From the NCBI RefSeq assembly GCF_032854445.1, contig NC_088296.1, positions 19,273,485-19,337,484 on the forward strand: a stretch of 64,000 nucleotides of DNA, in the 5' to 3' direction. Below are positions 18,591 to 63,058 of the stretch, piece by piece (positions within the stretch are counted from its first letter, which is position 1; each line of letters begins with the position of its first letter). Under the pieces are notes generated by a model. It searched no databases. It was given only the letters and a program-made list of their open reading frames with translations, and was not told the DNA's origin. The DNA is from Liolophura sinensis. Taxonomy: Eukaryota > Mollusca > Polyplacophora > Chitonida > Chitonidae. Both the position numbers and the translations under genes were made by a program.

Positions 18591-19222
18591 TACTCTAAAT
18601 CTAATCTATATCATGAATATATTTTCTGGGTTATCTTTCTAACCTCCTTTCCACCATCGTCATATTACTGAACAGTGATTAACTACGACGTTAAACTTCA
18701 AGAATACATGTATACATACCAGCTACAATGTACACACACTGGCATTCTACAGGGTATTGGTTGTACATTGGAAAAGGCAACATGAAGCCGGCCATCCTAC
18801 TGCAGGCCAACATTTTCACCATAGCAAAATTGCCTGATTGGATAAAACTGTAAACATGGCGGCGCTTAAGGTGATCTCATTGTGAACTATTTTGTTTACA
18901 GTATCAAAGTAATTCTTTTTAAACTTACTGGAGATTACTTTGTGGATGCATGTATACATTTGGTGTACTGTTATCTTTTCTTTCAAATTTTCAAGTATTT
19001 AATACAGTCGGATTCTCCATTCTATCCTGTCAACATAATTGGACTCTCCTAACATAAGACGATAGAATACACAGTTTAGTTATTCTACATCGACACCTAA
19101 TAAACACGCATCAATTATCATTTATTCAAATCTATCCTGCAAAAACTGTGCTCATCACATAATTAATATTCTTCAGCTGACTGCTACATGAAATGCTAGA
19201 AAACACAATAATACCGACATAC

Positions 19223-19480
19223 CGTCAGTCCAGAGCCATTTCCCTTCAGTTTCCCGATCTGAGGCCCCGATCCAAACACAACTATCACCAGCACGAGAGC
19301 TCATATACCGGGACAGCGGTGCGTTCAATATAGCCGTTCCCGTTATTGGTATGATTTTTGCCAAACGCCCGTTATCCCGTTCACAAAATGACTCTGCGTT
19401 CGCAAAGTCAGTCTCATAGTCGGGAATTTGGTAGATCTTGCTGTTGACGATAAATCGGTTGGTATCAGCACTGCTTACAG
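19223..19480 (-). CDS. CTLD-2, N-terminal half exon
   Basis: The exon is 258 bp, phase 1-1, with acceptor CCATTTTCAG and donor GTATGT. It codes for 86 residues: a strand with KIYQIPDYETDF, the first helix region with SFCERDNGRLAKI, and the core SCVWIGASDRETEGKWLWTD. WIGASD stands for the family WIGL motif, and W-x-W-T-D precedes GQPV of the next exon. The frame is intact. It is homologous along its whole length to the exon at 23018-23276. The protein would be a secreted or surface lectin-like receptor; its ligand is unknown. Known mollusc CTLD proteins act in pathogen recognition or extracellular matrix, but nothing here distinguishes these. Confidence 0.85.
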
Positions 19481-19959
19481 CTGAAAATGGTTATAGATAA
19501 TGTAACTGCGCAAAATAATATTTTTATTTACCTTGTGTGAAATGAACATTAAATGATATACAGTGTTATTGTAATCCGTCAAAATTTCCGCATGCTTGCA
19601 AGATGTATAAGCATAGTCTGAAGTTATTATTTTGAGTGTACTCATACAATTATATCTTTTTTAAAAGACGTAAAATTGGTCAACCCAACCAATGTATTTT
19701 TGTCTCCAAACATAATTGCATAATTCGCAATGAAAGTTGCTCTTTTATATGCAAAAAGACTGAGGAATTGTTAGGATTATTGATCTTTGGTGATGTGGGC
19801 TAGTGCAACGTGAAGATTGCCTTTCAGTGCCACAGAATTGGGTTACATGTAGGTCGGGTAGATGTGTCTCCCCCTTTTCACTGTGTATGTGTATTGGTAG
19901 TGTGTCATCTGCTCCACGGAGGGCGCTGGTGTGGTTCATCCTCTCTATCGTTCTACTCG

Positions 19960-21752: not shown

Positions 21753-22038
21753 CTACAATTAGGTAAACACAATGGCTACAATCAGTAATCTGTAATATGA
21801 ATTAATGTATGAGTTTATATGTCACACCAATGTGCTAGCTTACACATACGTATTGAGTAGTGTCTAACATATGCTGAAGTGCAATACATGGATGTCGAAC
21901 CTGATAAGTCAATGTGTTGCCTTATTCATCAACAGACCAACAGTTATTAAGCGCCCGGTACGTAACCGCATAGAGAGACACATAAAGACGCATAACTGTT
22001 AGTTCACCTTATGGAAGACACATTTTCTTAGATATTAC

Positions 22039-22438
22039 ATCACATTTTTTTTACCTGGTGGCCCCTACACAATTCCGAAGCACTTTCCTATTCATATACC
22101 TCATAAAAGGAAGTGACTCCATCTTCCCGCATAAGTGAAGTTAAAATTTAAGTGGTGGGATTTTTGAAGGCATAATCAAGTTTAGAAAAGAAATGGCTAC
22201 ATATACCATTTCTATTGCTTTTCATTTCTTATTTGTTCATCACATTTTTTTTACCTGGTGGCCCCTACACAATTCCGAAGCACTTTCCTATTCATATACC
22301 TCATAAAAGGAAGTGACTCCATCTTCCCGCATAAGTGAAGTTAAAATTTAAGTGGTGGGATTTTTGAAGGCATAATCAAGTTTAGAAAAGAAATGGCTAC
22401 ATATACCATTTCTATTGCTTTTCATTTCTTATTTGTTC
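22039..22438. repeat. 200-bp direct tandem duplication, apparently identical
   Basis: The block starting ATCACATTTTTTTTACCTGG and ending TTTCATTTCTTATTTGTTC occurs twice back to back with period 200. By eye I found no difference between the two copies. It lies in the intron between the two CTLD-1 exons. Confidence 0.9.
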
Positions 22439-40965: not shown

Positions 40966-40996
40966 TATAAATTAGATCACGGCAGGTATTTGCCAC
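40966..40996 (+). promoter_or_regulatory. TATA-box core promoter of the antistasin-type gene
   Basis: TATAAAT at 40966-40972 lies 63 bp before the initiator ATG at 41035. Initiation about 30 bp downstream would give a 5' UTR of roughly 40 bases. The spacing is typical of a TATA promoter for a strongly expressed small secreted protein. The exact start site is inferred. Confidence 0.6.
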
Positions 40997-41034
40997 ACAG
41001 TCTTATTTCACTAGGTGTAGAGACACTCAACACG

Positions 41035-41080
41035 ATGAAGGTTTTGATTATCGCCGCTTGCCTTATTGGCGCCATCTATG
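41035..41080 (+). CDS. Exon 1, signal peptide of an antistasin-type protease inhibitor
   Basis: The ATG follows ACTCAACACG downstream of a TATA box. The 15 complete codons read MKVLIIAACLIGAIY, a short basic start and hydrophobic core typical of a signal peptide. The exon stops in phase 1 before donor GTATGT. The following AA from exon 2 would suit signal peptidase. The mature product would be a secreted cysteine-rich inhibitor of about 65-70 residues with two antistasin domains: 86 aa precursor using the terminal exon at 50341, or 81 aa using the one at 52861. Antistasin-family proteins inhibit serine proteases. In molluscs and leeches they occur in secretions and in defence. The role here is inferred. 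Confidence 0.82.
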
Positions 41081-41269
41081 GTATGTATACAGCCAAACCC
41101 TAACTATAACTTTGCAATAATAAGCTGTAGTAACTGAATGGAATCTTCCTCTTACATATATTAGCCTTCTATCCAAAATGCTGGTATCAATTCAGACATG
41201 ATAGTGGGCTTTTGTTGCTAGACTAAGCATACTCATTGCATTGTTTAATGCTATTGTATGTTAAATGTG

Positions 41270-41560
41270 CCGAAAAGTCAGGATTTTGGGAAATTCTAGA
41301 TTAGTGACGTCTAATAAGCTGAAATTGACATCACTGAATTTGTTTTACCTAATTTTGCATAAGCCAAACTGCAAGCCATTGTGTAAATTGCTTCTCTTTA
41401 TGCATTTACATGAACAGTTAGAATAAAAACTCTAACTGAGGTAAATTGACAAGAAGCCGTATTTCAAAAGGTTACGCTTGATTTTGTTAAGTATCACACT
41501 AGCATCGCTGCTTTGGTTTTACTCGCTATGTTGTATTTCTTGAATATATTTTCACACTTC
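41270..41560 (-). repeat. Element D, reverse copy, in antistasin intron 1
   Basis: AACAGTTAGAATAAAAACTC, CTGAGGTAAATTGACAAG and TATCACACTAGCATCGCTGC appear in reverse family order, with one internal unit. Confidence 0.75.
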
Positions 41561-41697
41561 TGTTTTAATATCGGACACCATGACTTTAAATGGATTTTGC
41601 TACCTTTACGTATTCAAGCAAGTCCATGGCAAGGGTCCTCAAAATCGTTTCTGACCCTGGCAAAACCTTAAATCGTCGTCACAGTACTTAGGTCTTT

Positions 41698-41870
41698 GTA
41701 TTTATTTATTTGATTGGTGTTTTATGCCGTACTCAAGAATATTTTACTGATATGACTGCGGCCAGCATTATGGTGGGAGTAAACCAGGCAGAGCGTAAGG
41801 GAAAACCCACAACCATCCGCAAGCTGTTTGCAGACTTTCCCACGTACAGCCGGAAAGGAAGTAGGTCTTG
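41698..41870 (-). mobile_element. SINE family A copy, 5'-truncated
   Basis: TTTGATTGGTGTTTTATGCCG, GTACTCAAGAATATTTTACT, GGTGGGAGTAAACCAGGCAG and CCCACGTACAGCCGG are present; the head is lost. Confidence 0.85.
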
Positions 41871-42117
41871 GTACTACAAGTTCATATTTTGTTACAGTTG
41901 TCCTCAAATATAATGTTTGAGGTGATCACAATTCAAATTTCTGTTGTTCAAAAATATGCTCATTGATTTTTTTTTTAAATTTTGAAATGAGTCGCAAATG
42001 GTTTTGGAGTTTCGGCCCCAGATCTTAAGACATTAGCAATTTTTGATGGCGTGTAAATTCTTGTGCGATTTAAGACACCGTTACATTAGCCATTTCATTT
42101 ATTTTATTAGCCATTTT

Positions 42118-42540
42118 ATTTATTTATTTGATTGGTGCACACAAAAATCGCTTGTGTGGTATGATCTCAAACTTGTGTTCCTTCCAACAAAGGTCTTGTG
42201 TCACATTTGAATAACTCTATCTTGTGTTGAACCAACACAAGATTTTGTGGTGAAAGAATATAACACAAGATGGATTGGATGTTATACACAATACTTGATG
42301 CAAAATACTTAAATTTTTGTTACAGCTGATAGATAACCTCAGTTGTGGTTCAACACAAATTTGTGACTATTTGTAACATATTTTGTTTTAGATTTCAACA
42401 GAAACATTTCTTTTTGTGTGGTTTAGTCAAGAATATTTCATTTATACAACGACGGCCAGCGTTATGATCGGATGAAACCGGGCAGAGCCCGGGAAAAATC
42501 CCACAGTCAACCGCAAGTTGCTGGAAGGCCTTCCAATGTG
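42118..42540 (-). mobile_element. SINE family A split by a fold-back element
   Basis: The tail TTTATTTATTTGATTGGTG is at 42118-42136. The rest of the SINE resumes at about 42421 with TAGTCAAGAATATTTCATTT and runs to CTGGAAGGCCTTCC. Other copies show these parts adjacent, so the 42137-42420 block is an insertion. Confidence 0.85.
42137..42420. mobile_element. MITE-like element with CACACAAAAA termini
   Basis: It starts CACACAAAAATCGCTTGTGT and ends AACATTTCTTTTTGTGTG, whose complement begins CACACAAAAAG. Inside are many ACACAAG/CTTGTGT motifs in both orientations, so the element can fold extensively. It has no ORF. Its borders are defined by the interrupted SINE. Confidence 0.75.
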
Positions 42541-42765
42541 TGTAGATTTTTAGGTATTCTGTCCTGTTATTCAGGGGTGGGGGTGGGGTGGTGGGGGTCT
42601 CCTGCCTAAACAATCGGTTCCAAACTGTGTAAAGCAAAACTACACAGAAACAGTAACTGATGACAGAAAAGAGTAAAACAGTTTTATGTTCACTTTTCCT
42701 GATACCAACACATTTATCATTTCTGTGAACTGCCCGGAGATACCGGACGAGTGTGCTTCTAAGTA

Positions 42766-43715
42766 AGTCCGAATTCCGTCAAAGGACCTGGTACGGAAAA
42801 GCGGAGAATCGGCATTCCGTCAAAGGACCTGGTACGGAAAAGCGGAGAATCGGCATTTCGTCAAAGGACCTGGTACGGAAAAGCGGAGAATCGGCATTCC
42901 GTCAAAAGACCCGGTTACGGAAAAGTGGAGAATCGGCATTCCGTCAAAAGACCTGGTACGGAAAAGTGGAGAATCGGCATTCCGTCAAAGGACCTGGTAC
43001 GGGAAAGCGGAGAATCGGCATTCCGTCAAAAGACCTGGTACGGAAAAGTGGAGAATCGGCATTCCGTCAAAGGACCTGGTACGGAAAAGCGGAGAATCGG
43101 CATTCCGTCAAAGGACCTGGTACGGAAAGGCGGAGAATCGGCATTCCGTCAAAAGACCCGGTTACGGAAAAGTGGAGAATCGGCATTCCGTCAAAGGACC
43201 TGGTACGGGAAAGCGGAGAATCGGCATTCCGTCAAAGGACCCGGTACGGGAAAGCGGAGAATCGGCATTCCGTCAAAAGACCTGGTACGGAAAAGTGGAG
43301 AATCGGCATTCCGTCAAAGGACCTGGTACGGAAAAGCGGAGAATCGGCATTCCGTCAAAGGACCTGGTACGGGAAAGCGGAGAATCGGCATTCCGTCAAA
43401 GGACCTGGTACGGAAAAGTGGAGAATCGGCATTCCGTCAAAGGACCTGGTACGGGAAAGCGGAGAATCGGCATTCCGTCAAAGGACCTGGTACCGAAAAG
43501 CGGAGAATCGGCATTCCGTCAAAGGACCTGGTACCGAAAAGCGGAGAATCGGCATTCCGTCAAAGGACCTGGTACTGGAAAGCGGAGAATCAGCATTCCG
43601 TCAAAGGACCTGGTACGGAAAAGCGGAGAATCGGCATTCCGTCAAAGGACCTGGTACGGAAAAGCGGAGAATCGGCATTCCGTCAAAAGACCTGGTACGG
43701 GAAAGCGGAGAATCG
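42766..43715. repeat. 41-bp minisatellite, about 23 copies
   Basis: The unit runs TACGGAAAAGCGGAGAATCG, then GCATTCCGTCAAAGGACCTGG. Variants are AAGTGG, GGGAAAG, ACCCGGT and occasional extra bases. Since 41 is not divisible by 3 and the unit has no stop in any plus frame, three overlapping open frames of up to 334 codons result. Each cycles through the same three short peptides every 123 bp. It is in intron 1 of the antistasin-type gene and is not regarded as coding. Confidence 0.93.
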
Positions 43716-45060
43716 GCTTCAGATAAAAAAAAGTGCAAAATCAAAGTCCCAGTATAATTCTGTAAATTTCTGAATCGGAAGTATAAAACTTGGTCAAATC
43801 ACCCATACAAGTTATATGGTCATAAAAGAGACGGTTGCTCAGTAATAACCTGCCAAAAATGCACTCTCAATCAAATACCTCGATTTTTCGTTCAAACGAG
43901 ACATTGTGTTTTTAATTTGCAGTATGAAGATCGACGTTAATCAGAAAAATATTTTTTCCGAAACATCCATGTGTGTTTTGCACGTGCTGTCAAAGTTTCG
44001 ATTTGGTTTACTTTTGTCTTCATATGTAAAACATAAACTTTATAACGTGACCAATTTTGTTATAATTTTAAATATTGTAAAATACACATTTCAGTCATAG
44101 GCCCTCAAGTATTTTTTTTATAGTACAGTGAACTAACGAACTCACTCTGGAGAACAAGTTGCTCGTCGCCAAAGAGTTCGAATCTGTGTTGTTCTTTGGT
44201 TTTCTTTTATTTGGAAACATGCTTTTGTGTCAGTAAAGATAAAGGTCGTCTTGCATTAAATAAGTGTTATCATGGATTTGAATTGGAAGGTAAGATATTA
44301 CATAATGTGTGGGAACTATAGCAAAATCATACAAGAATCCTGGATGAGAGCATAGGTGGTCGGCTATCATTAACATTAAAATGTTGCGCTTGGCCGAAGA
44401 GAAGGCTGAAAGTTACATTTGTTATATATTGATTTATCTGATTCTTGCTATATCAAGAATTTTTCAAAAACTTACATTTGTGGTCGAGTGTCGAGTGATT
44501 TTCGTTAGCTCTACAGTGTCTAAATGCCAAAAAAGATATTTCAGTACGACTGGTCAGGGGTAGACTAGCGTTTATCCATTTAATGTCCTATGCATCGCTT
44601 TAGTGCATGTTTGGAGCTTTGTAAATCGGAAAGGAACGGAAGAGTAAAAAAAAAACTGGAAAAAGAAGGGGCCTTACGAGTGTGTCAGCAGCTGTCACTC
44701 ACAACTATAGTCGGTTTCGTGTCTTGAGGTGCACAGTTTCTTGCACTGGGCCGATTCCCCGTCTTACCATACCACGTCCTTTCCTCTCAAGCAATTCCGA
44801 CTTACAAGATTTCGGATATTTTACCATCCTCCAAGATATCTTATCTTCTGCGGACATTCCTCTAGATACGATTATATGGTAAACTTAAAATAGCAACATT
44901 TGTACCATCTGGAATCAAGTACGTGCGGACTGTTATCTGTATTACTCGAGCTGACAACATATGCTAGTCATTCAGACAAGGTTATGCATCAGGAGACAGG
45001 TTTTCAATATCTGAGGAAGGAATCATATTGCTCTGTCAAAAAAGTGTAATCCTTTAACAG
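43716..45060. other. Antistasin intron 1, no recognised element
   Basis: There is no exon-like segment with Cys-rich coding and splice sites, and no known repeat. Short open frames have no domain. Confidence 0.4.
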
Positions 45061-45078
45061 AAAAATTCACCAATATTT

Positions 45079-45216
45079 CAGTACTAGTGATGTATGTTTT
45101 ATGACTGAATGTATGCTCGAGACTTAACAATTTTACAGTCATATAATCAGTACTAGTGATGTATGTTTTATGACTGAATGTATGCTCGAGATTTAACAAT
45201 TTTTCAGTCATATAAC
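45079..45216. repeat. 69-bp tandem duplication
   Basis: CAGTACTAGTGATGTATGTT starts at 45079 and again at 45148. The units end in AATTT(T)(A/T)CAGTCATATAA, a piece that also occurs at the end of SINE family B. Confidence 0.85.
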
Positions 45217-45345
45217 CACGAGAACTTATTAAGTGTGTGTACATACACTGTGTAGTCTTGTGGCATGGTGATTTCAAGCCGCCAAAGTGCTGCCGCCACT
45301 GATGTATCATACCGAAGACACCAGACGTGACACCTCACAGCGCCA
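45217..45345 (-). mobile_element. SINE family C copy
   Basis: TGTGTACATACACTGTGTAG, GGCATGGTGATTTC, GATACATCAGTGG (complement) and GACACCAGACGTGACACC fit the family in reverse orientation. Confidence 0.6.
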
Positions 45346-45524
45346 TTTTTCGGCAGAAATCTCAGATATAACCTCTTTTTACATACGTGTAAGTCAAGTT
45401 ATCCTCTCTATAGGCATTCGTATAGGCCTACTAATCGTCGGCCACACTGGACGTATCAACTCAATAATCGGAAGACTTACTTCAAAAGCAACCATTAACA
45501 CAAACCACTAAAGAACTATAAAAA

Positions 45525-45850
45525 TCTAATTAAAGACGTACAGCGTAAAGAGCAAAACCCAGAGTAGTGACGACAGTGTGATAGCTGGCAAATGGTCACA
45601 CGACACCAATGAAATACGGCCTCTTGTCAGTTTACCTCAGTTAGGGTTTCATTGTGACTCCACGTCAATGTTTAAACCGTAGCAAACTACACGCCCTTTA
45701 GCACCATGGCTTAAGCAAAATATTGGTAATGTTGTGATGTTGATTGCAGCTTATTAGACGCCACTGGTCTAGAATTACTGAAAATGTTATGTTGTCATCA
45801 CATGTTACCATCAATAACATTAAAACAATGCAAACGGACCAAAGCATATA
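45525..45850 (+). repeat. Element D copy, near complete
   Basis: It starts AATTAAAGACGTACAGCG, has one internal unit, CCTCTTGTCAGTTTACCTCA, CACCATGGCTTAAGCAAAAT, and a tail to AACATTAAAACAATGCAAAC. Confidence 0.8.
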
Positions 45851-46067
45851 ATGTAAGAAATTAGGACGGAGAGGTCGACAACAGTCTCCAATGAAGCAAA
45901 AAAAAAAAAAAGTAACGAGTCATGTTCTACGTGTAAACAGCGACTTCCGACTTAACAAATCGTAATATTTCTGTCAGTTTTATCCCATTTCCATACAGGA
46001 GCACATAGATCCAGACTCAGTCGGCAAGACCATTATTTTCGCTGTTCGAATACCGTTATCGTTGATC

Positions 46068-46152
46068 CCAGTCGTCAATGGCCATACGAAAGTCCTCGAT
46101 GGCCACATGAAAGTCGTCGATGGCCAAATGAAAGTCGTCGATGGTCACACGA
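46068..46152. repeat. Short 22-bp tandem repeat
   Basis: Four units of GTCGTCGATGGCCA(C/A)ATGAAA type. Confidence 0.8.
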
Positions 46153-46577
46153 AAACTGCGACTGGTTCCAGCTAAAAGCGCTTCCGGCTGAGTCGTTATT
46201 TTGCATAAATAAGCTTTTAGGACCCTATTTTCAAAGGTCGTGTTAAGCTGAATTTTAAGATTGCGTGTACACCAAGCTTCAGGCCCGTGGCATATGGCCG
46301 GCCCTCCAATCAGTGCATTCCGATTCCCCTATAAACGTCCACTATACATAAGAGAAACAATCTTCTGTGAGGATTTGAACTCTCCAATAAAATGACAAAC
46401 AAAAACGACCAAAATAATTGTTCTACATTTGTAAATGTCAAATCTATAAACATCAACAATGGATTGGTAGTTCGACTACTTATTAATGCAAAACCGAAAT
46501 AAACATAACATGATATATTTATTTTACAATTTCGTGTGATTTTTAAATTAATGGTTGTCGTTGTCGTTGTATTTCAG

Positions 46578-46682
46578 CCGCCAACCTGCAAATCCCAGTC
46601 TGTGGTCCCGTGTGTATGATCTACTGTCCCTATGGCAACGTCCTGGATAGTAAGGGATGTCCCACGTGCAGTTGTAACCCGG
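46578..46682 (+). CDS. Exon 2, first antistasin domain
   Basis: The exon is 105 bp, phase 1-1, with acceptor TTGTATTTCAG and donor GTAAGA. It encodes VCGPVCMIYCPYGNVLDSKG followed by CPTCSC, exactly the antistasin core C-x2-V-C-x3-C-x2-G-x4-D-x2-G-C-x2-C-x-C. By alignment with the structurally known family, the P1/P1' reactive-site residues follow the second Cys of the core: Met-Ile here (C-M-I-Y-C). This predicts chymotrypsin- or elastase-like rather than trypsin-like specificity for this domain. It is preceded by AANLQIP, the likely mature N-terminus. It is spliced to either terminal exon (50341 or 52861) in the same phase. Confidence 0.88.
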
Positions 46683-48346
46683 GTAAGATAAATATTTTAA
46701 ACCTCTATTTACTTATTTATTTATTTAGTTTCTTAGTTATTTATTTAATTGTTTGCTTGGTTTTGAGCATGACATTAAAGATGAAATAATCAAAATTGCT
46801 TACTTCGGTATAATTTTTAACTTATTTGAAAAGGATTTCATTTTGCTTTTTTAATATATGCATTTATATATATATAATTGCATGGAAGTTATAGTGAAAA
46901 TGTTTTTGCGCCATGATATGTACGTTTTAGACACTTTCACAACACTTCGTAAACACTGCGATTTCCTGAAATATTTTAACGGTTATAACATCAAATGACA
47001 ATGGCAATTCACCAGATAATTTGCGAAAGAACTATTTACAAGGCTTTGTGATTGTGGATTTTGGTCTATAAACTTTCTTCTGGTGCCTTCTGGATTTATT
47101 ATGCAAATTCCAAGCTATTAAGCTCTACGATATAAAGGCGGGGCTTTGCTCTCTGATGTTATGTCACGGCTTTATGGCAGGGTAGGATTGTTTGCCTAGC
47201 TTTCGCATGCATGCTACAAGCATATTTCCCTCAACCATTCTGGAGGGTGCTTATAGTCAGATTCATTCCACATTTGGGATGATTTCAGTAATGGCGCAGC
47301 TCGTTTTACTAGTTTTACACCTTGTTGGTACTGAACCCAGACTAACCCAGCTGTCCCATCTTGTAACATGTAACTTATTTTTTTAAATAACTGTTCTCAT
47401 GAACATTGAGAGAGGAAAATTCTACAAATTCCCCGCCCAAGTCGGGGATTGAACCAGCATCTCGTGTCTCTTATAGTATAGACGGGCATTTTAAGAAATT
47501 GGCTATGGCCTTAATACGTCGCGCTAAATAATCACGACACATGCGTACAGTAGTACAAATCATAATCACACATAACTGAGCAGCTGCCGCACAGTACGAA
47601 ATGGTACGTTTGCCAGAAAATACCGTGTGGCTGATCTGTTCTACCACACGGTTCGTGGTTGCATTGTACGTATATGGATATGTGCACTGTGCCTTGCTAG
47701 CAATGGCTGTGGTACCTACAGGAAATTGTGACACAGTAAAAAAAAAAATCAGAAGCCGTCGTTAATACTGTTCGTTTATATTTTAGCTTTCCGATTAGCA
47801 CAGCATAGTCTACATCTGTTCAGTACGCTATCGATAATTCACAGATTTACAGTGTATATTGACCTCAAGCTGAGCCTGGAAGCTGGTCTCAGTGCAAGGA
47901 TCTTGGCGCGTGGACATTCATTCTAACAACCGCAGTCCACAGGGTGGAGAATAAGACTGCCTCTTTTCAAATGTGGTATGTCACAGATGGCTACATTTGA
48001 AAAGAGCAATGTACTAAAGAAGCATGGAGCGTATCAATGTGGAATGTTCCGGGTATCGACCGTTTTGCGCACAGATGGCCACAGTCCACAATTACTTTTG
48101 TATTTATTTACACGTTGACGTTAGGTCTCCTGGCACTGTCCCTAGAGCAGCAAGCCCCGAACACTCCGGTCCCGATAATCCTCGTTCGCTGAGCAAATTC
48201 TAGTCAGTTCTCTGAACAATGAAAGTTTTTGCAAAAATGACAAAAAGCTGATATGGATCAAACCCACCGAGTCAGAGGCCAGTGAAACAAGGTTTCTCAC
48301 TACTTCTGCCCGCCAAGAGTTTTCATCCGCTTTCATTTCCTGCAAA
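46683..48346. other. Antistasin intron 2, first part
   Basis: At about 47405-47495 a tRNA-like segment lies on the minus strand (B-box-like GGTTCAATCCC, complement of GGGATTGAACC), probably an old SINE head. Otherwise nothing is recognised. Confidence 0.4.
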
Positions 48347-48362
48347 ACGAAACCATCTAGGA

Positions 48363-48615
48363 GTGAGTGAGTGCTTGGGGTTTAACGTCGTACTCAACAA
48401 TTTTTCAGTCATATGACGACGAAGGAATCATTAGGGTGCATGTACGTGTAATATGCCTCCTTGTTGCAGGACGGATTTCCACCGCTCTTTTATTTAGTGC
48501 TGCTTCACTGAGACGACTTACCGAAGCCAAGTAAGCCGCCCCGCCCGAGCCATTATACTGATACTGGTCAACCAGTCGTTGCACTATCCCCTTCATGCTG
48601 AACGCCAAGCGAGGA
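48363..48615 (-). mobile_element. SINE family B, 5'-truncated, 16-bp TSD
   Basis: In the element's own direction it begins near CCTCGCTTGGCGTTCAGC, lacks the tRNA head, and ends in ACTCACTC. The 16-bp sequence ACGAAACCATCTAGGA flanks it perfectly at 48347-48362 and 48616-48631. 5' truncation plus a long duplication is the signature of LINE-driven retrotransposition. Confidence 0.92.
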
Positions 48616-49319
48616 ACGAAACCATCTAGGAAGCTGAGAACAAAAAAAAGACACAAAGAGGCAGCCCAAAAGACAAAGGAAATTTTAAAAAAAAATTAAA
48701 AAAATTGGCCAATTCAAAACATAGCACGGGTTTATATTCTTAATTCCTTCACCACCCAGAAGGATTAATTTTGGAGTGTAACCAAATGGCAACCTGGCAA
48801 GATCACTAATAGCTTATTCACCTGTGTTGGTGTGTACGGTCTAGTACTGGAGCATCAGGCCTAGTCTCTTATAGTTGTGTGGTGTGGGTGAGGCAAGCAT
48901 TCTATTCAGGTGCTTACTGCCGGAATCAGCAGCCTATTACAACATTTGTTGTTTTCGGAATCTAATTCTGTGGATTTTAGTGTATAAAGTCTTTTAATTT
49001 TTTGCTTTCAAGCGGCCATTTTTGGATTACAAGTCAATGCGTATTTGACATTAAAATACTGGAAATTGGAAACTTTGAGAAGGTTCGAGCTTTACTGATA
49101 AGAGGCACCAGAGGCACCATGGCACCAGTTGACCGCGACGGTAGCCTAACGCTTAGAATGTTGGCTTCGAAGTCGGGAGGCCTGGGATCAAAGACGGGTC
49201 GGGCCATGCCGAAGTCTTTACAAATGCTGCCGCTTCTACCTCCCTCCTTGCTGTCACCCACAGTGTATGATTTCAGTTCAGTTTGTGTCTACACTGTAAG
49301 TTAATCATCCTGTAACACC

Positions 49320-49520
49320 AGCCGTCACGAAGTCGAAAGATATAGTTCCTGTGTCAGTGTATTGTAACTCGGTGTGGGGTCATGTCTGGTGTCTTCGGCA
49401 TGAAACTTCAGTGGAGGCAGCACTTGGGCACCATGGAATCATCATGACACAAGAAGACACAATATGTACACCCACCTAAACACTCATGAAGAAGTGTTAA
49501 TTAAGACTTCAAACCTTATG
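49320..49520 (+). mobile_element. SINE family C copy
   Basis: GTAACTCGGTGTGGGGTCAT, GTCTGGTGTCTTCGGCATGA, GGAGGCAGCACTTGGGC and AGAAGACACAATATGTACAC define the family core. The end is TGAAGAAGTGTTAATTAAG. Confidence 0.6.
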
Positions 49521-49619
49521 TATACACATATGCATGCATGTCACTAGGTGCGACTACGTTATTTTTGATAATCAAAAGGGTAATGCATGTTCGACCTGAA
49601 GTCTGCCACTTATTTTTGT

Positions 49620-49705
49620 GGAAAGGTCGTTGGTCGAGTTGTCTAGACGGCTGACATTTATTGCTGTCGAATTGCTGCTGGTTCGAAACCCAGCTTGGAA
49701 AGTGT
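49620..49705 (+). mobile_element. tRNA-like segment (probable SINE head)
   Basis: An A-box-like TCGAGTTGTCTAGACGG and a near-ideal B box GGTTCGAAACC are spaced about 40 bp apart. The arms do not make a credible full cloverleaf, so I call a SINE head and not a tRNA gene. Confidence 0.45.
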
Positions 49706-50340
49706 ACTTCCTAATAACGATAATACTAAAACTTTCGCTGCACGCCCGTGGACATGGTTACATCAGTTTCCACGGTATTGTATGATTCATAAACAGGTAC
49801 AGTGTGGTTGGCACACGATAAAAAGTATAAAAATGACAGAATGACTCTACCCTTTCGTAAAGTCACGACGTCACGTCACAAAGGCACGTTACTTTGTTGT
49901 TGTAGCGTTGTGTCTAGAATCCCTTTCAAAAGACTTCGTAAATCAATTTTTCGTAAATTTTCTCGTAAATGATGTCGAAAAGACGTTACGAGAAATATGA
50001 CTACCGAAGTTGGTTGAAAGTGACTCGCGCGAGTATTTTACACAGTACTGGGTACATGGCGCATGGGACTGCCCAATGTTTGGACCTTTCTGAGCATCAA
50101 CGCTATTACACCAGAATGGTTGCTGGGTGTGTTTCGGACAACTCCTCTTTGCTGCAATTTACCCTTTGCAATTGCTAGGTTCATGAAATGAGCCACTCGT
50201 ACTGTGATGTAACAAGGGCCGTTGCTCTGTAGTCGTAACCTGAAAATACCTCCATAAACCGCTTAGCGGTATTAACAAGGCCCCTACCAGTCTTCAAGAA
50301 TAGTTATACATTGTTGGGCTTTGTTTTTTGCAATGCGCAG

Positions 50341-50450
50341 CTCCCCTTGAAAAGAGAGAAGATGGTTGCCCACCTGTTCTCTGCAAGATGTACTGCTTCA
50401 ACGGGTGGAAGAAGAATGACGAAGGATGCGACATATGCGAATGCGCCTAA
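50341..50450 (+). CDS. Alternative terminal exon 3a, second antistasin domain (P1 Lys)
   Basis: Acceptor GCAATGCGCAG precedes 50341, the exon opens in phase 1, and TAA is at 50448-50450. It codes APLEKREDGCPPVLCKMYCF followed by NGWKKNDEGCDICECA. The antistasin core is complete. The predicted reactive bond is Lys-Met (C-K-M-Y-C), so trypsin-like proteases would be targets. A KR pair just before the domain might be a processing site. An AATAAA at 50574-50579 follows 124 bp after the stop, so this exon carries its own polyadenylation signal. The exon at 52861-52955 is a paralogue (about 21 of 29 aligned domain residues identical) in the same phase. The two cannot occur in series because 3a has no donor before its stop. 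Confidence 0.86.
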
Positions 50451-50573
50451 ACAGATGCCACGTGAACGTCACGTCATCGACATCTTTTAAATTCAGTTGG
50501 CTCGACATACTAAGCATAACGGTCACATTTAAATTCAAGTATCTTGCTGTACCAAACACAATGGATTGAATGC

Positions 50574-50579
50574 AATAAA
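50574..50579 (+). terminator. Polyadenylation signal for exon 3a
   Basis: AATAAA in TGCAATAAAAGTATGC, 124 bp downstream of the stop of exon 3a; the next bases include a GT-rich stretch. Confidence 0.7.
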
Positions 50580-50844
50580 AGTATGCTGTAAACAAGTTTC
50601 AGAGAGCCTGTCTTGTATTGAGATAGCGTATTTAGGCTTATCCTTCAGCCCAGCTATACGTGACAGACGCAGTTAATTCTGTCTATACCCTTTTTAAAAA
50701 ACAAAATGCTTACTGAAATTTGATATTTTCGACTATTTCGATTGTATTGTGAAATGTGAATTTAAAAAGGAATAGACTTAAGCTATTCACATGTCAGTAT
50801 TAACCGTCAAAGCAAGCATGTTATTGCCTTGTTACATAGTAAAA

Positions 50845-51175
50845 GATTATGAGTAAAACTAGAGCAGCGACAACTATGTGGTAACCAAATAGTCAAATTG
50901 TAACAATGAAATACGATCTCTTGTAAAGTTACCTCATTTGGGGATTTTTTCTGACTGTTCATGTAAATTCTTAAATAGACGCTCCCTAGCCACCTAATTA
51001 CGAAAAAAAAAACATGCAGTGATGTTAATTACAATGTATTAAATGTCATTGGTCCAGAACTAAACTGCTGTACTTCATCACATTTAACATACACTAATTT
51101 TAAAACAATAGAAAGGGACTCGGGGATGCTTAATCAACCAGCAGAATTTTGGTTTATGCAGGAATACAGTAGACG
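50845..51175 (+). repeat. Element D copy between the two terminal exons
   Basis: ATGAGTAAAACTAGAGCAGC, CATTTGGGGATTTTTTCTGA and GCAGTGATGTTAATTACAAT, ending with GTTTATGCAGGAATACAGTA. Confidence 0.75.
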
Positions 51176-52860
51176 TTTTCAGTAACTACCTCGTGAATCA
51201 AACATGTACCGGACTGATTGAATTACGAGTGAAAATTGTACTTATATCATCTTCCTAGTGTTAGTGATAAACTGTTTTTTTTCAATCAACGACAGTGAAC
51301 ATTGACATATGTGACTCAGTTATTTAGAATATACCGAGTTGTTTCAAAACGGTATAATATATCTGTAGCTCTTATCATCCAGATAAAAAAAATCAGGGGC
51401 ATCTTCCGGGTCCACTTTCACAAACTTGTGAACTTGTCCACTTTCAATTGCGAGTGCGCATGCACTCTATTTGTCTGTATGAAAAATGTCGTAGTTTAGA
51501 TCTCTTCAGCGTTTTTAAAGTATTAGGTTCCCCATACGCAGATTTCAACGGTTATGTATGATCCAAAAAAGCAAAAGAGTTCCAACACAATTAGCATTTT
51601 TAAAGCAGGCCTATTTTGTGGGTGATGGCCTCTATTTGTATTAAACGTCAATTTTTTGACATAAACTTAAATTATATTATAATCTGACATGTATCTCTCA
51701 GGATGACTCTCTGTAACCGTACAGATTTGATGAGAGACTTGGAAACGCTTATATTGAAGGATATTCCTCTCCGCTATAGCGGACAGGTAACGGTAAACTA
51801 TTTACCTGTCTACTCCGACAATGCAATCAATAAAGAGGCTATACACAGGAGATTTATGGCAAAAAAACCCATATTCACTAATCAAACCAAATTTTCTGTG
51901 TTTACCGAGAATAGCTCAAATTATTGTTTTTCGGTAAATATCAGATTCGACTTTATAAAATTAGAATGACTCTATGGATTGAAAAAGAATATAATGCGCT
52001 TCATAATTTTTGGAAATATTATTACCGATTTTGAACGGTAACACGTGTACAAAAGGTGAGATTTTGGAAAGGTAATTATTTCGGCTGTTTTAAATTGATA
52101 GTAAAAATTCAATTGGATTTGCGCTGACTAATTTTTGCCAAAAATATTCGGTATAGCTTCTTTAACCAAGATCACAAACAAGTAGCCTATTGTTAGACGA
52201 GAGCTGTTTTAGTGGCATGGCAATTGTTTCCAGAAACATGACAGAAATGTCAGGACGGAGACTGAGATGGTTTTCAGTAACAAGGTAACGTTTTTCTATT
52301 GACAGACTTGAAATGTGAACACAAAGTTGTTTCCATCAAACGTACATGTACACGTTTGTTTCTTAGATTAACACCAATCAAATAAATAAAATAAATAAAA
52401 AGATTACCAGTTGGGTATAGGGGAGTTGCGTGGTTGTACTATCACACGCTTATACATTTTTGCATGGCTGATCTCTCTAAGCTTTCTGTTCTTTGTTTGG
52501 AATTTCTTTTCGTTTCGTTGCTTGCAAAAACTTTTCTATTTTATCACAATTATTGTTTGGTAACGGTCTGAGTACGAAATGAATCTTTTTACATATGAAA
52601 AATACTTTTAACCTTTTCACGAAACGGTAATCTGTTAGGTTAATCGGGTTAGTCTGAACCTTAAATTGACTATATGGTTAACGTTTTTGTTTTCGCGTCG
52701 TGTTTGTTTTTACTTTAAATATATAGGGTTTACCATATATATAGGGGTTGCATGTACGGACGCACGTCAACGCAGTAAATTCTCTGATGCAACGTTGAAT
52801 TAACTTTGCCATTCTCTGCATAGTCTTTCTTATTTTTTTAAATTTTCTTTTGTAACACAG
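51176..52860. other. Intron upstream of exon 3b
   Basis: An 88-codon frame at 51703-51969 has no recognisable domain. A block at 52100-52170 (TTTTTGCCAAAAATATTCGG) resembles one at 60330 (TTTTTTGCCAAAAATCTCCA), so an old repeat may be present in both. No further antistasin exon was found. Confidence 0.4.
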
Positions 52861-52955
52861 AACCCGATGACTGTCAGCCTGTTTTGTGTAGAATGTACTG
52901 CCCAAATGGATGGCAAAAGAACGAGAAGGGATGTGACATCTGCGCATGTGCCTAG
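52861..52955 (+). CDS. Alternative terminal exon 3b, second antistasin domain (P1 Arg)
   Basis: Acceptor TTTTGTAACACAG precedes 52861, the exon opens in phase 1, and TAG is at 52953-52955. It codes EPDDCQPVLCRMYCPNGWQK followed by NEKGCDICACA. The antistasin core is intact and the predicted P1-P1' bond is Arg-Met (C-R-M-Y-C). Compared with 3a it lacks the five-residue insertion containing the KR pair and has Pro instead of Phe after the third core Cys. AATAAA at 53029-53034 lies 74 bp after the stop. Use of 3b needs 3a and its polyA site to be skipped. It might instead be a decaying duplicate, but nothing in it is broken. Confidence 0.86.
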
Positions 52956-53028
52956 AACGACGATCCCCGGTGTTTCCCAAATCAGATCTGTGTAATTTAA
53001 ATCGGCATGTACCCAACTTGTGGGCTGT

Positions 53029-53034
53029 AATAAA
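53029..53034 (+). terminator. Polyadenylation signal for exon 3b
   Basis: AATAAA in GCTGTAATAAAAATATG shortly after the exon 3b stop, with a TGTGCGTCTGTG GT-rich stretch downstream. Confidence 0.7.
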
Positions 53035-53079
53035 AATATGTTCCCTGTGCGTCTGTGACAGAATTAATATTTTCAAAGT

Positions 53080-53950: not shown

Positions 53951-54066
53951 TATTCGGGTTGTGTTGTCGGTATTGTTCATCCCTGCATGGTAAAGTAAAA
54001 ATCCTGCATTACCAGAGAACAATGGGCATAGACCCGAATCGCTAGTGCACAGGAAAAAACATGTAC

Positions 54067-54320
54067 ACTGAAAAAATAATCTGTTAAATTTAACAGAAGG
54101 CCTGTAACCTGAGTGATGCTAGAATAAATTCTGTTATTATAACACAATCATTTTGTCTCATTCAACATGTTATCCGTTATTCTAATAGAATGGTTATGTT
54201 GAATTAAAAGAATATGTGTGTTATATTTATCAGAATCACCTTCTAATATAACAGAATACATTCTAGCATCACTCTGGTAACTTTCTGTTAAATTTAACAT
54301 CATATTTTTTAAGTATAGCT
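54067..54320. mobile_element. Fold-back element (MITE-like), about 250 bp
   Basis: The left arm (AAAAAATAATCTGTTAAATT, AGTGATGCTAGAATAAATTC) and the complement of the right arm (AAAAAATATGATGTTAAATT, AGTGATGCTAGAATGTATTC) align over roughly 70-80 bp. The centre holds TTCAACATGTTATCC against GGTTATGTTGAATT. TTAAATTTAA palindromes sit in both arms. No ORF. Confidence 0.75.
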
Positions 54321-62692: not shown

Positions 62693-63058
62693 TACCGGCC
62701 TGGATAGCACAGTTGGTAGAGCGTCCGCTTGGGGACCGGTAGATCCAGGATCAATCCTTGATCGAGTCACAACTAAGACTTTAAAAGAGGAAGTTGTAAC
62801 TTCCTCACTTGGCGTTCAGCATGAAGGGGATAGTGCAACGAATGGTTGACCAGTATCAGTATAATGGCTCAGGCGGGGCGGCTTACTTGCCTTCGGTAAG
62901 TCGTCTCAGTGAAGCAGCACTAAATAAAAGAGCGGTGGAAATCCGTCCTGCAACAAGGAGGCACATTACACGTACATGCACCCTAATGATTCCTTCGTTG
63001 TCATATGACTGAAAAATTCTTAAGTACGACGTTAAACCCCAAGCACTCACTCACTCAC
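62693..63058 (+). mobile_element. SINE family B, full-length, 12-bp TSD
   Basis: The head CTGGATAGCACAGTTGGTAG is followed by AGACTTTAAAAGAGGAAGTT, the body, GACGTTAAACCCCAAGC and ACTCACTCACTC. The 12-mer TCCTGTTGATGT is repeated perfectly at 62681-62692 and 63059-63070. It is in an intron of the carrier gene, opposite to its direction. Confidence 0.93.

Follow-up and report, generated by a model that had tools for sequence, protein, structure and literature searches.

Serpins, which are large conformational inhibitors, supply the only clear parallel for reactive-site exons in other protease inhibitors among the open-access matches listed. In the part of the source that was available, PpSerpin-1 of Pteromalus puparum consists of a constant part and alternative C-terminal exons, giving 21 C-terminal forms confirmed by reverse transcription–polymerase chain reaction (PMC10513286), and a title cited there describes the reactive site loop of Manduca sexta serpin-1 as encoded by alternate exons. 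An arrangement like that of the insect serpin-1 genes, one constant part followed by alternative C-terminal exons, occurs in a 64,000-nucleotide stretch of the Liolophura sinensis genome (the window; C2:19273485–19337484 of a 609-Mb assembly). Judged from its sequence, the window probably holds a single gene (~40999–53055, predicted ends) that would encode secreted two-domain inhibitors of the antistasin type by means of alternative last exons, a reading to which we assign a probability of about 0.72. By analogy, the locus would work like the serpin exon-swap genes without being one of them; in contrast to insect serpin-1, what is exchanged is an entire disulfide-rich domain of 26 residues, there are two forms only, and P1, the specificity site, stays basic. 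Reactive-loop exons of serpins make this a known kind of mechanism, of which the antistasin version would be a new variant.

The leech antistasin-type inhibitors (antistasin, hirustasin, bdellastasin and guamerin) belong to the same Pfam family as the domains in the window and have the same P1 position. Exon skipping and intron retention have been proposed for leech decorsins (PMC12651989); in the available part of that account of antistasin-like and decorsin splicing, alternative terminal exons with differing P1, as here, do not appear. Among the open-access papers searched on splicing, mollusc and oyster-isoform topics, none announced in its title or abstract opening that an antistasin gene has alternative terminal exons. 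For molluscs, the available excerpts mention antistasin as one of the protease inhibitors of oyster larvae that are forming their shells, and an abalone table lists it as an immune candidate. The parts of the predicted gene are:

40966–40971, plus strand: TATAAA box, ~33 nt 5′ of about 40999, where transcription may start (start site inferred)
41035–41080, plus strand: probable coding part of exon 1, signal peptide MKVLIIAACLIGAIY plus one base, with a phase-1 donor at 41081
46578–46682, plus strand: exon 2, in phase 1 on either side, encoding the first antistasin domain (CMIYC, Met at P1; Pfam score 33.9 bits)
50341–50450, plus strand: terminal exon 3a, encoding a second antistasin domain (CKMYC, Lys at P1), with the linker APLEKREDG and the stop codon TAA
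50574–50579, plus strand: AATAAA of 3a, 123 nt past the 3a stop
52861–52955, plus strand: terminal exon 3b, encoding the alternative to that second domain (CRMYC, Arg at P1), with the linker EPDD and the stop codon TAG
53029–53034, plus strand: AATAAA of 3b, 73 nt past the 3b stop

A pattern scan and Pfam place three antistasin (PF02822) domain exons in the window, all on the plus strand; 3a (35.8 bits) and 3b (38.5 bits), like exon 2, exceed the curated threshold of 21.2 bits. PF02822 is the sole Pfam family that these exons match, with no serpin domain in any of them, and a profile of the three domains revealed no fourth among 2926 six-frame segments of the window (next match, E 1.2). As is typical of the family, each exon encodes six core cysteines with P1 immediately after the second (codons Met 46616–46618, Lys 50385–50387 and Arg 52890–52892). 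The leech-type antistasin domain with its N-terminal subdomain has ten cysteines; the extra N-terminal cysteines are missing from exons 2, 3a and 3b. Our reading of the sequence reproduces the exon coordinates, phase 1, separate stops and AATAAA signals that an earlier note on this DNA had given for 3a and 3b. The same note had held that the two cannot be joined in series, and indeed both accept phase 1, compatible with the exon 2 donor, and both end in a stop right behind the domain. A common upstream exon is thereby followed by two exons that each possess a fitting acceptor phase, a stop and a polyadenylation (poly(A)) signal, the layout of alternative last exons.

The span considered in the earlier note (46578–53034) omits the probable signal-peptide exon. 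Scanning both strands of the window for an ATG followed by a hydrophobic core and then a donor in phase 1 yielded 14 candidates (9 on the plus strand, 5 on the minus strand) with 41035–41080 as the top score. Splice sites were ranked by simple consensus matrices against 3963 GT and 3483 AG sites: the donor of exon 1 (ATG/GTATGT) falls in the top 2.2% and that of exon 2 in the top 0.28%, and the corresponding figures for the acceptors are 1.5% (exon 2), 2.0% (3a) and 3.4% (3b). The predicted spliced products comprise 86 residues (1-2-3a) and 81 residues (1-2-3b), and the signal peptide is likely cleaved near AIYA/ANLQ. A tandem array of ~23 copies of a 41-bp unit (42773–43717) lies within the proposed intron 1.

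In the proposed mechanism, exon 1 would join exon 2, whose domain 1, with Met at P1, would be expected to act on the elastase/chymotrypsin class. Exon 2 would then join 3a, and the nearby poly(A) site would end the transcript; where 3a is bypassed, exon 2 would join 3b instead. Both products would be double-headed inhibitors with a trypsin-class second head, and the choice of terminal exon would fine-tune that head and alter the linker. The two linkers are unlike, that of 3a containing a dibasic Lys-Arg and that of 3b being short and acidic. We infer the actual splicing, poly(A) choice and protease targets; use of both exons by the animal appears likely on sequence grounds. The Lys-Arg pair (50352–50357) occurs in the 3a linker only and is a possible processing site that would split the two domains of isoform a.

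The alternative that survives best, although we consider it unlikely, is that exon 2 is skipped and exon 1 joins 3a or 3b to give one-domain inhibitors (51 and 46 residues), alone or alongside the two-domain forms. Exon 2 is in phase 1 at both ends, both shortened joins remain in frame, and one-domain relatives exist at the C10 and C2 0.45 Mb loci described below. However, the simple matrices rank the exon 2 donor above that of exon 1 and the exon 2 acceptor above those of 3a and 3b, and regular inclusion of exon 2 is therefore expected.

Of the 26 domain residues, 19 are identical in the two terminal exons, as are 55 of the 78 bases; counting the stop makes it 20 of 27 positions, close to the 'about 21 of 29' given in the earlier note. 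Over 27 codons, the proportion of synonymous differences is 0.96, which is saturated, and that of nonsynonymous differences is 0.14; identical codon positions number 23/27, 23/27 and 12/27 at first, second and third positions. Saturation of the synonymous sites indicates that the pair is old. Only 77 bp, all of it coding, show significant DNA similarity (50373–50449 with 52878–52954, E 3e-9), and the flanks show none, the remaining matches between both stretches having E ≥ 0.037. An unconstrained copy should accumulate more first- and second-position differences, and on this logic the hypothesis that one copy is neutral is disfavoured by a likelihood ratio (p 0.021; p 0.019 on 26 codons). There is thus moderate evidence that the pair has been conserved at the protein level and that both exons are used, and have been used in the past, as coding sequence. 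In trees of the ten exons with C-x4-C spacing, 3a and 3b group together with support of 53 (DNA) and 69 (protein); three quartet tests of 3a/3b against the C10 exons returned 0.85, 0.95 and 0.43, and 0.41 for all three jointly. As to the exon duplication under constraint proposed earlier, the constraint has moderate support, and local duplication is favoured as the origin but not proven.

A separate signal-peptide exon for 3b, which the earlier note had named, together with a separate promoter, as one of the observations that would overturn its proposal, was sought in the window and no candidate was found. Between 3a and 3b (50451–52860) the scan gave nothing at strict or lenient thresholds, the open frame of 3b contains no ATG ahead of its domain, and the domain-profile scan detected no second first-domain exon in the window. 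The assembly contains at least 37 antistasin matches (a C4 exon at 10445179 was found additionally), and the comparison covered the 20 kb that precede the window and the 160 kb that follow it, plus parts of other loci. Eight terminal exons were checked for a signal exon of their own (two in the window, three at C10 and three at C2 0.45 Mb, with C11 exons outside the scan); only 3b and the C10 exon T3 were without one. At the C2 0.45 Mb control, all three terminal domain exons stand behind their own signal exons, by order along the DNA only, as ordinary tandem genes would look, and in the C2 cluster signal exons precede six groups of domain exons.

The C10 locus at 14.46 Mb is built like the window. 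One signal exon (14459321) precedes T1 (14460942), and a second (14462763) precedes both T2 (14463795) and T3 (14464851), with both joins in frame; no phase-1 signal candidate was found between T2 and T3, and both end in a stop of their own, with separate AATAAA signals (14463954 and 14465034). The constraint test gave p 0.004 for T1/T2. This locus of the same build strengthens the reading of the window as one gene with two terminal exons. The P1 residues at C10 are acidic (Glu, Glu and Asp) across two small one-domain genes (C10:14456500–14466400). The second of these genes consists of two terminal exons behind one signal exon, and the T2/T3 pair has Glu and Asp at P1.

Several points weigh against the single-gene, two-terminal-exon reading. 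Neither the strict nor the lenient scan would pick up a signal peptide interrupted by an intron, and a weak signal-like open reading frame with a poor donor is present in intron 2 at 47291 (score 6.9 vs 9.9 for exon 1). Five minus-strand C2 exons (19448683, 19449972, 19454410, 19455528 and 19464683) and a plus-strand exon at C2 16258177 (16.25 Mb locus) have no credible signal exon nearby at the listing threshold used; at least two of the six appear degraded (19454410 and 19455528). The scan is thus imperfect and misses some genes. When the lower 95% bound of third-position divergence is used, neutrality of one copy of 3a/3b gives P 0.116, which leaves the evidence for constraint only moderate; at C10 the test gave p 0.094 for T2/T3 and p 0.26 for T1/T3. 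The grouping of 3a with 3b is also weak.

These limits of sensitivity, together with the tandem one-domain genes that have their own signal exons at C2 0.45 Mb and C10, lend something to the view that tandem duplication produced a separate gene, with 3b as its last exon and with a signal exon that went unrecognised. We nevertheless regard this as improbable, given the interval between 3a and 3b, which yielded no candidate even in the lenient scan, the single first-domain exon in the window and the fact that like scans recover a signal exon for six other terminal exons (3a via exons 1 and 2). That either 3a or 3b is a duplication relic now out of use is a poor prospect, since, despite the degraded exons in the same cluster and the non-significant conservative test, both copies have kept the frame, six cysteines, acceptor, stop and AATAAA through saturated synonymous divergence, and the likelihood ratio speaks against neutrality of either one. 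Downstream of the window, C2:19394000–19483000 holds a cluster of more antistasin exons, the minus strand carrying most of them; many have a phase-1 donor in place of a stop, and several appear degraded.

It is conceivable, with odds somewhat below even, that recurrent terminal-exon swapping diversifies antistasin inhibitors at two or more loci, with one promoter and signal exon serving several terminal reactive-site exons that have long been kept, the charge class at P1 (K/R or E/D) being selected within a locus and P1 being free between loci. Within both alternative pairs the charge class is in fact kept (K/R in the window, E/D at C10). If true, reactive-site exon swapping in an unrelated family of small inhibitors, at two loci of one genome, would mean that this solution arose more than once.

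The specificity assigned to P1 in the earlier note fits a passage in the available part of PMC6265900, in which P1 is the specificity site and both Lys and Arg at P1 go with the trypsin class. It also fits the variability among the copies compared. The fetched stretches gave 44 domain matches of at least 14 bits, of which 36 have the standard 21-residue frame and 8 were dropped; with the C4 exon added by hand (37 domains, 33 distinct sequences), P1 is the most variable of the 21 columns at 3.27 bits, followed by 2.96. Against solved chains, 3b matches antistasin (1skz, E 1.1e-6) and guamerin (3bg4, E 0.0027), and its Arg aligns with P1 of antistasin, guamerin and hirustasin; 3a matches antistasin more weakly (E 0.011), and for exon 2 no match reaches significance (best E 1.1; guamerin, E 4.2). 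The weak match of 3a and the lack of one for exon 2 mean that the P1 assignment in domain 1 rests on the cysteine frame. Guamerin has Met at P1, as does domain 1, whereas the one-domain leech chains carry an N-terminal part ahead of the matched stretch that the window exons do not have.

Lys and Arg belong to the same P1 class, and the exchange of 3a for 3b is therefore conservative; it would probably adjust affinity within a class more than change specificity, and the difference of class would lie between domain 1 (Met) and domain 2, not between 3a and 3b. The earlier proposal of two inhibitors that differ at the second site is borne out in its architecture, which the second locus resembles, but the functional contrast is weaker than was implied. 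The locus would offer a natural pair of inhibitors with a common first head and a mildly different second head, useful for asking what the choice of Lys or Arg at P1 is worth to the animal.

On C4 (C4:10438500–10448400, minus strand), internal antistasin exons resembling exon 2 (10447612, 10445179 and 10442762) stand behind one signal exon (10450284). Two of them, 10445179 and 10442762, are near-identical: across the 75 nt of the domain they differ only by two substitutions, which fall together in the P1 codon (CTC Leu vs GCC Ala). The third copy also differs from these two at two codons before the second cysteine.

Elsewhere in the window, a stretch of ~290 bases at 50851–51119 is 66% similar to 45550–45839 (E 2e-11) and is probably a dispersed repeat. 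A borderline tRNA-like Rfam match at 62698–62769 on the plus strand (29.2 bits vs a cut-off of 29), in which ARAGORN called no tRNA, is possibly a tRNA-derived repeat. A 200-bp tandem duplication with 100% matches at 22038–22438 is either very recent or an assembly duplication. Nested inverted repeats at 54064–54317 (arms 34–35 nt, spacers 110 and 184 nt) resemble a small non-autonomous transposon, and the minus strand at 19176–19490 carries a C-type lectin exon (PF00059, E 3.6e-6).

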